Origin: Cryomorphaceae bacterium BACL7 MAG-120322-bin74
GTDB lineage: Bacteria > Bacteroidota > Bacteroidia > Flavobacteriales > Schleiferiaceae
NCBI GenBank assembly: GCA_001438205.1
Contig: LICG01000003.1
Coordinates: 1-64,000, forward strand
Length of the DNA stretch: 64,000 bases
Direction of reading: 5' to 3'
The number at the start of each line of letters is the position of its first letter. Within the stretch, counting starts at the first letter, position 1. The position numbers were made by a program, and so were the translations under genes. Positions 40,196 through 56,231 of this stretch are shown here, piece by piece. The notes beneath the pieces are model-generated. The model did no database searches and had not been told where the DNA came from. It saw only the letters and a list, made by a program, of their open reading frames with translations.

Positions 40196-40223
40196 TATGG
40201 CGGTTCTAAAAATGTTCAATAAC

Positions 40224-52645: not shown

Positions 52646-54775
52646 TTATTCGTTGTTCTCCATCTCTTCCTTCAAGCGCGCCAAGCTGTCAAGATCACCT
52701 AAAGTGGACTTTTCAACTATTGAGTTCACTGCATTTACTGCAGAAGAACCTCCTTTGTTACCACCGCCCTTGCCTTTCTTGCTTCCGCCTTCTTGGCTAT
52801 CTGCAACTTGCTTAAAGGTTTGGGTGTGTGACACTAAAATGCGACGGCTATCACGGTTAAATTCAATCACAACGAAATCAATCTGCTCGCCTACTGCGAT
52901 AGATGATTCGTCTTCCTTAATGGCATGACGTGCAGGGCAATAAGCATCCAACTCTTGGTCCGCAAACCATACATTGAATCCTTTGTCTGCCGCAGACTTC
53001 ACTTCACCTTGGTGTTTGCTTCCTTCACCGAAGACAACTGCATAACTGTCCCATGGGTTTTCAGAAACTTGCTTGTGACCTAGGCTCAAACGACGGTTTT
53101 CAACGTCAATGTCCAATACCTGCACCTCAAGATCAGCGCCTACAGAAGTAAACTCAGATGGGTGCTTCACTTTCTTCGTCCATGAAAGGTCAGAGATGTG
53201 AACCAACCCATCGATACCCTCTTCTAACTCCAAGAATACACCGAAGTTGGTAAAGTTGCGCACCTTACCAGTATGGGTGGAATTCACAGGGTACTTAGAC
53301 GTGATTTCAGACCAAGGATCTGGTGTCAATTGCTTCACACCTAGAGACATTTTGCGCTCTTCGCGGTCAATGCTCAATACAATAGCCTCGACTTGGTCGC
53401 CTGCCTTGTAGAAATCATTGGCAGAACGTAAGTGTGAACCCCAGCTCATTTCAGAAACGTGGATCAAACCTTCAACGCCGGATGCAACCTCAACAAAGGC
53501 ACCATAGTCCGCAAGAACAACAACCTTTCCTTTGATCTTGTCACCTGCAGCGATACTAACATCCAATGCATCCCATGGATGTGGGAACAATTGCTTAAGA
53601 CCCAATTGGATACGCGTCTTAGCCTCATCAAAGTCAAGGATAACCACATTGATCTTCTGATCGAGTCCAACCACTTCTGAAGGATGGTTGATGCGGCTCC
53701 AAGAAAGGTCTGTAATGTGTACCAAACCGTCAACACCACCCAAGTCGATAAATACGCCATAGCTGGTGATGTTTTTGACCACACCTTCCAATACTTGACC
53801 TTTCTCCAACTGGCCGATGATCTTACGCTTCTGTTCTTCCAAGTCAGCCTCAATAAGGGCCTTGTGCGAAACAACCACGTTTTTAAACTCGTGGTTAATC
53901 TTCACAATCTTGAATTCCATCGTCTTATCAACGTAGATATCATAATCGCGAATAGGCTTTACGTCGATCTGTGAACCGGGAAGGAATGCTTCCAATCCGA
54001 AAATATCCACAATCATACCGCCTTTGGTGCGGCACTTTACATAGCCTTGTACAATTTCTTCTGTGTCAAAGGCTTCGTTCACACGATCCCACGCTTGGAT
54101 AGAGCGGGCTTTGCGGTGAGACAGAACCAATTGACCTAATTTATCTTCTTGCTTGTCAACGAGAACCTCTACAGCATCTCCAATTTTCAAATCAGGATTG
54201 TAGCGGAATTCATTTAGTGACACAACTCCTTCAGACTTTGAGCCGATGTCGATGATCACATCACGGTCAGACATATTGACCACCTTACCGGTTACGACTT
54301 GGTGCTCAACAGAAGTCACCAAAGTGTCTTCATACATCTTTTCCATTGCCATGACACTCTCCGACTTCTCTTTGCTTCCAGTTTCGTAGGCGTCCCAATC
54401 AAAGGGCTCTTCTGCTTCTTCCGCTTCCAAAACAAGATCTTCATCTTCGCCTTCTTCCTCTTCAGAAGCTTCTACTTCTTTCTTAGGGGCTTTCTTGGTG
54501 GCACGTTTTGCAGGTGTTTTTTCAGCTGGTTCGGCTTCCTCAGCAGCGAGTGCTACTTCTGTAACAGATGCTTCTTCTACAGCGGGAACTTCTTCTGCAA
54601 CAGATGCTTCCTCTACAGCGGGCGCTTCTTCTGCAACAGATGCTTCCTCTACAGCGGGCGCTTCTTCTGCAACAGGTGCTTCCACCGCTTCTTCAGCAGG
54701 TACAGCAACTTCTTGGATGGTTTCTGGGGTGTTCAGCTCTTCAGCTTCAACTTCAGGCTTGGTCGATTTGGCCAT
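52646..54775 (-). CDS. rpsA: 30S ribosomal protein S1 with acidic repeat N-terminus
   Basis: A 709-residue S1 protein. Six S1 RNA-binding domains are recognisable from about residue 165 to 670, for example VVTGKVVNMSDRDVIIDIG, GVVKNITSYGVFIDLGG, KGKVVVLADYGAFVEV and TGKVRNFTNFGVFLELEEG. The first 150 residues are an acidic, Glu/Ala/Val/Pro-rich tail with 12-residue repeats (APAVEEASVAEE), and the C-terminal 45 residues are Lys/Gly-rich. S1 captures mRNA on the ribosome, which matters where Shine-Dalgarno signals are weak. The ATG at 54775 is chosen because the preceding frame back to 54865 is noncoding leader. Preceded by a promoter box at 54888-54895 and a large inverted repeat. Confidence 0.94.
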   Translation of the reverse strand: MAKSTKPEVEAEELNTPETIQEVAVPAEEAVEAPVAEEAPAVEEASVAEEAPAVEEASVAEEVPAVEEASVTEVALAAEEAEPAEKTPAKRATKKAPKKEVEASEEEEGEDEDLVLEAEEAEEPFDWDAYETGSKEKSESVMAMEKMYEDTLVTSVEHQVVTGKVVNMSDRDVIIDIGSKSEGVVSLNEFRYNPDLKIGDAVEVLVDKQEDKLGQLVLSHRKARSIQAWDRVNEAFDTEEIVQGYVKCRTKGGMIVDIFGLEAFLPGSQIDVKPIRDYDIYVDKTMEFKIVKINHEFKNVVVSHKALIEADLEEQKRKIIGQLEKGQVLEGVVKNITSYGVFIDLGGVDGLVHITDLSWSRINHPSEVVGLDQKINVVILDFDEAKTRIQLGLKQLFPHPWDALDVSIAAGDKIKGKVVVLADYGAFVEVASGVEGLIHVSEMSWGSHLRSANDFYKAGDQVEAIVLSIDREERKMSLGVKQLTPDPWSEITSKYPVNSTHTGKVRNFTNFGVFLELEEGIDGLVHISDLSWTKKVKHPSEFTSVGADLEVQVLDIDVENRRLSLGHKQVSENPWDSYAVVFGEGSKHQGEVKSAADKGFNVWFADQELDAYCPARHAIKEDESSIAVGEQIDFVVIEFNRDSRRILVSHTQTFKQVADSQEGGSKKGKGGGNKGGSSAVNAVNSIVEKSTLGDLDSLARLKEEMENNE
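54552..54683 (-). repeat. 36-base tandem repeats in the rpsA 5' coding region
   Basis: Two copies of a 36-mer (54588-54623 and 54624-54659) differ only at their first base; a diverged copy precedes (54552-54587) and a partial one follows (54660-54683). Each unit adds 12 residues in frame (APAVEEASVAEE-type). Confidence 0.8.
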
Positions 54776-54842
54776 GCGCTTGTTTTCTTGTATTCCAGCA
54801 GTTTTGCAGGCTTCAGCGCCCACCAGAAGGGTATAAAAAATA

Positions 54843-54888
54843 GCAGTCCTTTTTGGCGCCTGCAAAAACGCTTTCCAAAAAGGACTGC
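54843..54888. terminator. 14-base perfect inverted repeat between gltA and rpsA
   Basis: GCAGTCCTTTTTGG (54843-54856) and CCAAAAAGGACTGC (54875-54888) pair perfectly around an 18-base loop. On the minus strand the stem is followed by TATTTTTTATA, so it resembles a terminator for gltA, yet its 5' arm abuts the rpsA promoter box at 54888-54895. It may also be a transcribed element of the rpsA leader. Confidence 0.6.
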
Positions 54889-54895
54889 AAAAATA
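54888..54895 (-). promoter_or_regulatory. TAnnTTTG promoter box of rpsA
   Basis: Reads TATTTTTG on the minus strand, an exact match, sharing its last base with the inverted repeat. It implies a leader of about 105 bases before the rpsA ATG, the longest in the window. Confidence 0.55.
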
Positions 54896-54926: not shown

Positions 54927-56231
54927 CTAGCTTCCAAAGCGCTTCTTAAGTAATTCTGTCGTGGTTGAACCCGGGCGTTCCAAGGGCATTGCCAAGGCAC
55001 GATCCCAAATCAAATTAGTTAACGTACCAATGGCACGTGACACGCCGAAGAGCACCGTATAAAAGTCATACTCCACTAAGCCATAATGCATGAGCAGCTG
55101 ACCTGAATGTGCATCGACGTTTGGCCATGGATTCTTCACTTTTCCCGTTGCTTCTAAAATCCCAGGAACCACATCATAGATATTGGAAATCACCTGGAAC
55201 AGCGGATCTTCAGGCATATGCTTTTGAGCAAACTCGCGTTGTGCGGTATACCGTGGATCTGTTTTGCGCAATACCGCATGGCCAAAACCCGGAATCACCT
55301 TTCCGCCTGCTAGCGTGGCTTGACAGTATTGAGCAATTTCTTCTTTGGTTGGCGTTTCAGAGCCAATGGCTTCTTTCATCTCCAAGGTCCATTTAATGAC
55401 CTCTTGATTTGCTAGGCCATGAAGAGGCCCGGCGAGACCATTCATTCCTGCCGCAAAACTCTGATACGCATCTGACAATGCAGACCCGACAAGATGAACC
55501 GTATGGGCAGAGACGTTGCCCCCTTCATGATCCGAGTGAATCGTCATGTACAATCGCATGAGTTCTCTGAACTCTTCATTGTCATACCCCAACATGTGGG
55601 CAAAATTACCCGCCCAATCCAACTTAGTATCAGGTTCAATATGCTCTCCATTTTTATATGCACGACGGTAGATGTATGCAGCAATCCGCGGTAAACGCGC
55701 AATCAAGTTCATCGCATCTTCATATGTAGTGTCCCAATATTCCGATTTTTTTACGCCATTGGCATACGCCTTTGCAAACTCACTTTCAGTGCGTAACGCC
55801 ATGATCCCCACCACAAATTGCGTCATGGGGTGAGTATAGCTTGGCAGAGCGTCGATGGTTTTAAATACATGCGGAGGTACAATCGCACGGCGCGCCCAGT
55901 TGTTGCTGACGCGACGCACATCATCATCTGTTGGTAACTCATTCATGAGGATGAGATAAAACAGACCCTCAGGAAGTGGCTCCTGGCCGCCAGGATATGC
56001 AGGAAGCAACTTTTGTAATTCAGGAATACTATAGCCACGGAAACGAATGCCCTCTTCAGGATCCAATTTGCTGGTTTCACAGATCAATGCCAACATACCG
56101 CGCATGCCTTGATAAATCTGATTCACTTTTATCTCACCCAAGGTCTCTTCTCCATGGGTAGCTAAAAACGCTTTGGTTTCCGCTTGAGCAATAGGGATTT
56201 TGGTGGAAAAATGTTCTTTTATGCGGTCCAT
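54927..56231 (-). CDS. gltA: Citrate synthase, mitochondrial-like type
   Basis: A 434-residue citrate synthase. Key catalytic segments are SDHEGGNVSAHTVHLVGSAL, MNGLAGPLHGLANQEV, VIPGFGHAVLRKTDPRYTAQ and KNPWPNVDAHSG, giving the active-site His, His and Asp. The close match of these runs to the mitochondrial enzyme, rather than the E. coli-like type II form, is striking. Condenses oxaloacetate and acetyl-CoA, the entry step of the TCA cycle. Third gene after carA and eno, 9 bases behind eno, and apparently ended by the inverted repeat at 54843-54888. Confidence 0.94.
   Translation of the reverse strand: MDRIKEHFSTKIPIAQAETKAFLATHGEETLGEIKVNQIYQGMRGMLALICETSKLDPEEGIRFRGYSIPELQKLLPAYPGGQEPLPEGLFYLILMNELPTDDDVRRVSNNWARRAIVPPHVFKTIDALPSYTHPMTQFVVGIMALRTESEFAKAYANGVKKSEYWDTTYEDAMNLIARLPRIAAYIYRRAYKNGEHIEPDTKLDWAGNFAHMLGYDNEEFRELMRLYMTIHSDHEGGNVSAHTVHLVGSALSDAYQSFAAGMNGLAGPLHGLANQEVIKWTLEMKEAIGSETPTKEEIAQYCQATLAGGKVIPGFGHAVLRKTDPRYTAQREFAQKHMPEDPLFQVISNIYDVVPGILEATGKVKNPWPNVDAHSGQLLMHYGLVEYDFYTVLFGVSRAIGTLTNLIWDRALAMPLERPGSTTTELLKKRFGS

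Follow-up and report, generated by a model that had tools for sequence, protein, structure and literature searches.

A conserved, covarying leader of rpsA mRNA in Flavobacteriales, probably a site of S1 feedback, with a first hairpin that may terminate gltA transcription in one subclade

Ribosomal protein S1 brings mRNA to the ribosome. In several gamma-proteobacterial families it specifically represses its own mRNA, the rpsA leader of this group (described for E. coli, for example) having a specific fold with AU-rich single strands, which S1 is thought to bind cooperatively, and no canonical Shine-Dalgarno sequence; the protein is described as preferring U- or AU-rich sites and as having high affinity for pseudoknots (PMC10931766). 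For the tisB toxin mRNA of E. coli, whose standby site precedes the RBS by about 100 nt, a pseudoknot near the 5′ end was proposed as required for binding of S1 and the 30S subunit (PMC7708055). Translation in Bacteroidota does not use Shine-Dalgarno pairing (PMC10931766, PMC9976891), and purified F. johnsoniae S1 promoted initiation on one mRNA devoid of a Shine-Dalgarno sequence (PMC9976891). For related lineages, Flavobacteria and Bacteroidia, structured 5′ leaders are described upstream of the genes for ribosomal proteins S4, S15, S16 and L13 and for homologs of L19 (Eckert and Weinberg 2020; PMC7247131), and the rpsB motif, the leader of S2 and thus of another gene, is an r-leader that also includes a pseudoknot interaction (PMC2704228). 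The leader considered here resembles the gamma-proteobacterial one, by description, in its place before rpsA, in having a specific fold and in the lack of a canonical Shine-Dalgarno sequence, its AU-rich linker being a candidate counterpart of the single strands; it differs in having two hairpins that are predicted to be joined by their loops and in belonging to another phylum. With tisB it shares a predicted pseudoknot close to the 5′ end. Rfam 15 at gathering thresholds places no family on the leader, weaker matches scoring far below threshold, and reports only a tRNA elsewhere in the window (the whole stretch of 64,000 nucleotides analysed); in 20 loci of relatives it reports only Flavo-1, outside the leader, so that a known Rfam RNA was rejected as an explanation. 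One such Flavo-1 RNA, at L045:719-794 in a family f3 genome, precedes the rpsA leader by about 100 nt. An S1 or rpsA leader is absent from the printed table of PMC7247131, the main text of which contains "rpsA" and "bS1" zero times; PMC2864571 and PMC8040213 likewise never mention "rpsA" in their main text, and among the matches listed for openly searchable full texts no paper on a Bacteroidota rpsA leader was recognizable by title or start of abstract. Ribosomal leaders thus being a known kind of element, the rpsA leader of Flavobacteriales appears to be a new member.

The locus came to attention through a perfect inverted repeat, 54843-54856/54875-54888, with 14-nt arms that are 100% complementary and a loop of 18 nt, placed between gltA and rpsA, both of which are read from the minus strand. 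On that strand TATTTTTTAT (54842-54833) stands directly 3′ of the stem, and repeat, loop and T-rich run are present exactly as originally claimed; TATTTTTG (54895-54888) stands 5′ of it, and the stem begins with the final base of this box, which bears out the proposed overlap with the rpsA promoter as one shared base, the last G of the box. Inverted repeats that are perfect over 14 nt and enclose a loop of 3-30 nt number three in the window compared with a mean of 0.0 in 40 dinucleotide shuffles, so that a chance palindrome was rejected, as was a dispersed repeat in view of the single match in the own genome. The remaining two repeats are situated at 40221 (loop 10) and 50634 (loop 4). In F. 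psychrophilum the -7 box occupies positions -12 to -5 (PMC9723704); the rpsA mRNA is accordingly predicted to start just after the TAnnTTTG box, at about 54883, with a leader of about 108 nt. The original prediction had put it at about 105 bases and called it unusually long, rightly so in view of median leaders of 24 nt in F. psychrophilum and 32 nt in B. thetaiotaomicron (PMC9723704). By comparison with relatives the 14-base repeat is the visible part of a larger conserved leader, in which the box is followed in many Flavobacteriales by hairpin P1, an AU-rich linker, hairpin P2, the motif UACAA and, about 13 bases later, AUG. The elements assigned in the window are as follows, with their basis in brackets.

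52646..54775, minus: rpsA, 30S ribosomal protein S1, ATG at 54775-54773 (NCBIfam 30S ribosomal protein S1, 880 bits)
54927..56231, minus: gltA, citrate synthase, the gene upstream of rpsA, stop codon at 54929-54927 (gene identity confirmed)
54888..54895, minus: -7 box of the rpsA promoter, TATTTTTG, TAnnTTTG (sequence)
54883..54883, minus: predicted transcription start (inferred from the box position -12 to -5, PMC9723704, and sequence)
54884..54888, minus: outer 5′ extension of the stem, GCAGU, expected only in gltA read-through RNA (6 of 115 leaders)
54875..54883, minus: 5′ arm of P1, CCUUUUUGG, pairing 54883-54875 with 54856-54848 (structure parse, own-versus-foreign test)
54868..54872, minus: helix a, AGCGU, in the P1 loop, partner of c, 54872-54868 with 54819-54815 (parse; crossing order, reached by 0 of 50,000 permutations)
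54858..54867, minus: helix b, UUUUGCAGGC, in the P1 loop, partner of d, 54867-54858 with 54811-54802 (parse, partner tests)
54848..54856, minus: 3′ arm of P1, CCAAAAAGG (structure parse, own-versus-foreign test)
54843..54847, minus: outer 3′ extension of the stem, ACUGC (6 of 115 leaders)
54833..54842, minus: T-run UAUUUUUUAU behind the extended stem, candidate terminator tail (stem and T-run test)
54829..54847, minus: linker between P1 and P2 (68% AU in the window)
54820..54828, minus: 5′ arm of P2, UUCUGGUGG, pairing 54828-54820 with 54801-54793 (parse, pair counts)
54815..54819, minus: helix c, GCGCU, in the P2 loop, partner of a (parse; crossing order, reached by 0 of 50,000 permutations)
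54802..54811, minus: helix d, GCCUGCAAAA, in the P2 loop, partner of b (parse, partner tests)
54793..54801, minus: 3′ arm of P2, CUGCUGGAA (parse, pair counts)
54788..54792, minus: UACAA motif (12 nt before AUG)

The sample of relatives was assembled in two parts. A search of 60 genomes from 34 genera, own genome among them, gave 55 strong rpsA matches, five genomes (G011, G017, G042, G046 and G050) showing weak S1-domain matches only; 50 loci (30 + 20) were read from this sample, and in three genomes (G011, G013 and G016) the leader was met on another contig, between gltA and the N-terminus of rpsA. The second part comprised the best 80 loci from a scan of named genomes and covers Cryomorphaceae and Schleiferiaceae (both Flavobacteriales), Phaeocystidibacter, Flavobacterium, Aquimarina, Maribacter, Tenacibaculum, Flagellimonas, Apibacter, Myroides and others, plus three Bacteroidales/Marinilabiliales. 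A simple pattern, namely the box, UACAA ending 85-160 nt past the box start and an open ATG after it, is matched by 115 of 130 loci (45/50 in the first sample, 70/80 in the named-genome scan), representing 109 distinct leaders; six leaders are identical between the two samples and probably belong to the same genomes. Although the search pattern allowed TAnnTTT followed by G or C, TTTG ends the box in 115/115 leaders; the distance from +1 to UACAA has a median of 100 nt, and that from UACAA to AUG a median of 13 nt, falling within 10-16 nt in 101/115. Loops have median lengths of 17 and 25 nt, and in 69 parsed leaders the linker averages 78% AU compared with 62% in the rest of the leader. Among the 15 loci that miss the pattern, seven (L008, L011, L013, L030, L052, L064, L076) have a contig edge in or near the rpsA start, which puts the leader off the stretch. 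Another five, recovered by the model R1 described below (L041, L065, L072, L082 and L118, with 29.1, 40.6, 46, 83.7 and 41.5 bits), have the leader at spacings beyond the pattern. Three, Bacteroidales or Marinilabiliales by title or genus (L110, L119, L125), have no leader and give no R1 match at E 1. In these last (Bacteroidales, Odoribacter, Marinilabiliales), and similarly in L162 and L163, UACAA is absent and a motif like AATAATGTCTAACTTATTAG or ATATAATGTCTTATTCAATTAA is seen between box and start, which may mark a different S1 leader or else a short leader frame. As to the coding part, the S1 N-terminal extension is repetitive, with acidic EEAPAVEEASVA repeats at 54540-54720 of the window and lysine-alanine, KKPAA-like repeats in some genus mates (among L154-L156, L008, L011 and L013), whose contigs end there.

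The helices were evaluated by an own-versus-foreign test, in which the best helix of a leader is compared with the best helix formed by its 5′ part with the 3′ parts of other species. For 71 leaders less than 80% identical, own pairing exceeded foreign pairing in P1 (14.73 vs 12.45), in P2 (14.27 vs 9.72) and between the two loops (16.67 vs 13.98), each with 0 of 100,000 permutations, while two control pairings were devoid of signal (90,979 and 63,800 of 100,000); an earlier run with 25 leaders had the same loop-loop outcome. By eye, the loops of P1 and P2 are complementary at two places. For a second loop-loop helix, tested in 69 parsed leaders, the crossing order a-b/c-d is favoured, its value being reached by 0 of 50,000 permutations, and the two nested orders are not (49,319 and 49,675 of 50,000); the fourth arrangement, pairing the segment after b with that after d, also gave 0 of 50,000 and is tentatively taken for an echo of shortened or misplaced b helices. 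The parse failed in two of the 71 representatives (L009 and L097), which leaves the 69; the parser took another register of P1 in L003, L004 and L010, the stem test was repeated without it, and L050, a poor fit, was retained.

Pair counts required an alignment. In that of 34 diverse leaders obtained with MAFFT the arms and loops had shifted against each other, which made it unusable; two smaller alignments were also set aside, and the counts refer to the aligning set, 38 of the 115 leaders. In these the four helices comprise 26 pairs with 87.7% of cells paired, two-sided changes are found in 20/26 pairs, and covariation equals 0.455 versus 0.265 in shuffles, 0 of 500 shuffles reaching any of five measures. 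Structure versions that were slid along the alignment gave 46-54% paired, a control biased towards the structure, because the 38 leaders were picked for their expected alignability and served as the source from which the structure was drawn up. RNAalifold, which is blind to crossing pairs, returned P2 alone on the same alignment. Partner tests and pair counts agree in describing a conserved leader structure all four helices of which covary across the leaders compared. Conservation of the stem in relatives had been set beforehand as the point at which the claim might fail, and the stem turned out conserved and covarying. What the original prediction had overlooked is the pairing between the loop of the repeat hairpin and that of another hairpin, which stands immediately ahead of the start codon, a pairing that is supported by covariation.

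To estimate the distribution of the leader we used the model R1, built of the 38 aligned relatives, the window not being one of them, and containing P1, P2 and the promoter box. It finds the window site at 54788-54895, minus strand, with 42.2 bits, as the sole match in the own genome at E up to 1; when 19 kb were searched, the palindrome also gave a weak match on its opposite strand (17.7 bits, E 0.31). At E 0.01, the own genome being counted in each set, R1 matches 178/395 genomes of the order and is without match in 217/395, and matches 18/395 in the class and 27/296 in the phylum, one match per matching genome; these counts are lower bounds, because eight genus members in which the pattern occurs go unmatched by R1 (G001, G002, G005, G007, G008, G010, G018, G020). 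All 22 R1 loci whose sequence was checked, the window among them, precede rpsA, which is the gene association of an r-leader. Three class matches, from family f42 in a different order, likewise stand before rpsA. These (L144, L146, L158) look like a miniature leader with shorter loops that are partly complementary by eye, where CCGG/CCGG and UGAAA/UUUCA could pair loop to loop. Outside the order, ATACAA occurs near the start codon in 11 of 28 class loci, the 28 being the best-scoring of 98. For 14 out-of-order leaders, chosen by eye for the motif (13 of the best 28 of 98 class loci plus L158; L185 was tried and dropped since the pattern did not fit), P2 was supported with 3 of 50,000 permutations, P1 less so (567) and the loop-loop pairing weakly (1,186). 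The core consisting of P2, UACAA and in part the loop complementarity thus appears to extend beyond the order into other Bacteroidia.

In contrast to comparison, folding energy adds little: the leader alone is no more stable than its shuffles (z -0.09), so that the four helices are supported by comparison and not by energy, and the read-through RNA of 152 nt, in whose fold P1 is extended, has a moderate z of -1.88. RNAfold, which does not consider pseudoknots, gives -27.6 kcal/mol for a fold of the window leader with b-d and no P1, versus -16.9 kcal/mol for P1 and P2 alone, and on account of this preference the helices may be alternatives and not one fold. The leader would then be a switch, P1 and P2 exchanging with nested b-d according to ligand, temperature or transcription speed, to which one may add that the read-through RNA extends P1 and that in L003, L004, L005 and L010 an extra complementarity of 8-9 pairs, GGCGCCCAA/UUGGGCGCU, overlaps arms of P1 and P2 and may constitute an alternative fold. 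The loops, on the other hand, look long enough for a loop-loop complex, the helices need not be mutually exclusive, and we consider such switching quite unlikely.

The resemblance of the repeat to a gltA terminator, noted from the beginning, holds for the nearest surroundings of the window. In the window and its nearest relatives (L002-L006 and L010) a helix of 10-14 pairs starts from the box G, and 7-9 of the 10 bases behind it are T; helices of at least 8 pairs starting at this G are found in 6/115 leaders, exactly the subclade of the window, so that lengthening of the stem and the T-run occur together. The stretch from gltA to the box was scanned for separate terminators, defined by a stem of 5-12 pairs that include 4 or more G-C, a loop of 3-8 and 5 or more T in 8; none was found in 6/6 subclade loci and one in 6/11 other gltA-linked loci. 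Another, simple terminator scan did not list the repeat itself, whose 18-nt loop is too long for it. The full stem has -24.1 kcal/mol (z -4.6) and the truncated one -11.9 kcal/mol (z -1.5), and the arrangement of a stable stem and then a T-run is that of an intrinsic terminator. Among the six sequences the extension has changed once, GC to GU in L005, which leaves covariation for the terminator part nearly nil. The extended hairpin may stop transcription arriving from gltA in the window organism and its closest relatives, sharing with an intrinsic terminator that overlaps a promoter the stem and the T-run behind gltA, and differing from a plain one in that it is confined to 6/115 leaders and has a conserved leader hairpin as its base. 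A terminator is not indispensable to gltA, given that in L007 and L017-L020 the long stem is missing and a separate terminator as well.

If the repeat were solely this terminator and its overlap with the promoter incidental, the 14-bp stem, its stability, the T-run and the lack of any other terminator found before rpsA of the subclade would be accounted for; what it explains is, however, limited to the T-run and the five outer pairs. P1, P2 and the loop pairing are kept in relatives having no long stem with T-run, in loci where a separate gltA terminator exists (L009, L012, L014, L015, L016, L023), and where the stretch fetched around rpsA showed no gltA: gltA adjoins rpsA in 17/50 loci, and most of the remaining ones, with gltA not found within that stretch, show the same leader layout before rpsA. 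Since covariation of P2 and of the loop-loop helices contradicts it as the whole story, a purely terminating role of the repeat is very unlikely. As regards the RNA started at the promoter, the original prediction was correct in that part of the 5′ arm, GCAGU, would be lost, and went too far in reserving the stem for gltA read-through RNA, because an RNA started at the predicted site should retain CCUUUUUGG/CCAAAAAGG, 9 of 14 pairs, which is the part of the stem with a conserved counterpart in relatives. Lacking GCAGU, its stem is weaker and ends five bases before the T-run, from which the RNA started at 54883 is predicted to escape termination.

Taken together, the structured 5′ leader of rpsA mRNA is most likely a site at which S1 controls its own synthesis, a reading that we hold probable. 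It is the best explanation of a fold met so far only before rpsA, at a near-fixed distance to AUG and with an AU-rich linker, and the suggestion of an S1 regulatory site in the original prediction is strengthened by the conserved covarying fold, binding of S1 being inferred and another ligand conceivable. The course of events would be the following. RNA starts at about 54883, within the inverted repeat, and its first nine bases would form P1, as sequence and covariation suggest; P2 would close just before UACAA-N12-AUG, and the loops would be joined by a-c and b-d, consistent with the covariation. The compact pseudoknotted fold and the AU-rich linker would thereby come within reach of the initiating 30S subunit. 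When free S1 is in excess it would bind fold and linker in competition with S1-bearing 30S subunits, and rpsA would be repressed; when S1 is scarce, the 30S subunit would bind and rpsA be translated. In the subclade, the outer five pairs GCAGU/ACUGC together with the T-run would turn the P1 hairpin into a terminator for gltA RNA.

The same elements might serve the opposite end, the leader being an S1-dependent enhancer or standby site, a landing pad of the 30S subunit for translation of rpsA and not for its repression. The near-constant distance to AUG is in line with this, as are the tisB pseudoknot required for S1 and 30S binding and for translation (PMC7708055) and the phylum's initiation without Shine-Dalgarno use (PMC10931766, PMC9976891); were it a general enhancer, however, one would expect to meet it in front of further genes, whereas the 22 R1 loci checked all precede rpsA. 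Enhancement and feedback are compatible, and enhancement in place of repression seems unlikely to us. Hairpins at mRNA 5′ ends often protect the mRNA, and the fold does sit at the predicted 5′ end; a role in mRNA stability or processing with no ribosomal protein bound would need neither the loop-loop fold nor the fixed spacing to AUG, and is highly improbable.

Within the S1-feedback reading we put forward, tentatively and with less than even confidence, that one hairpin is used in two ways selected by the start of transcription, as a terminator of gltA RNA or as half of the pseudoknot for S1 feedback, and that the P2/UACAA core is maybe an old S1 element of much of Bacteroidia. How the level of S1 is set in Bacteroidota is a basic question, given the role of this protein and initiation without Shine-Dalgarno pairing. 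The subclade of the window offers a natural case in which five added pairs may have made a leader hairpin a terminator for the upstream gene, and strong conservation together with known helix partners makes the leader tractable by compensatory changes.
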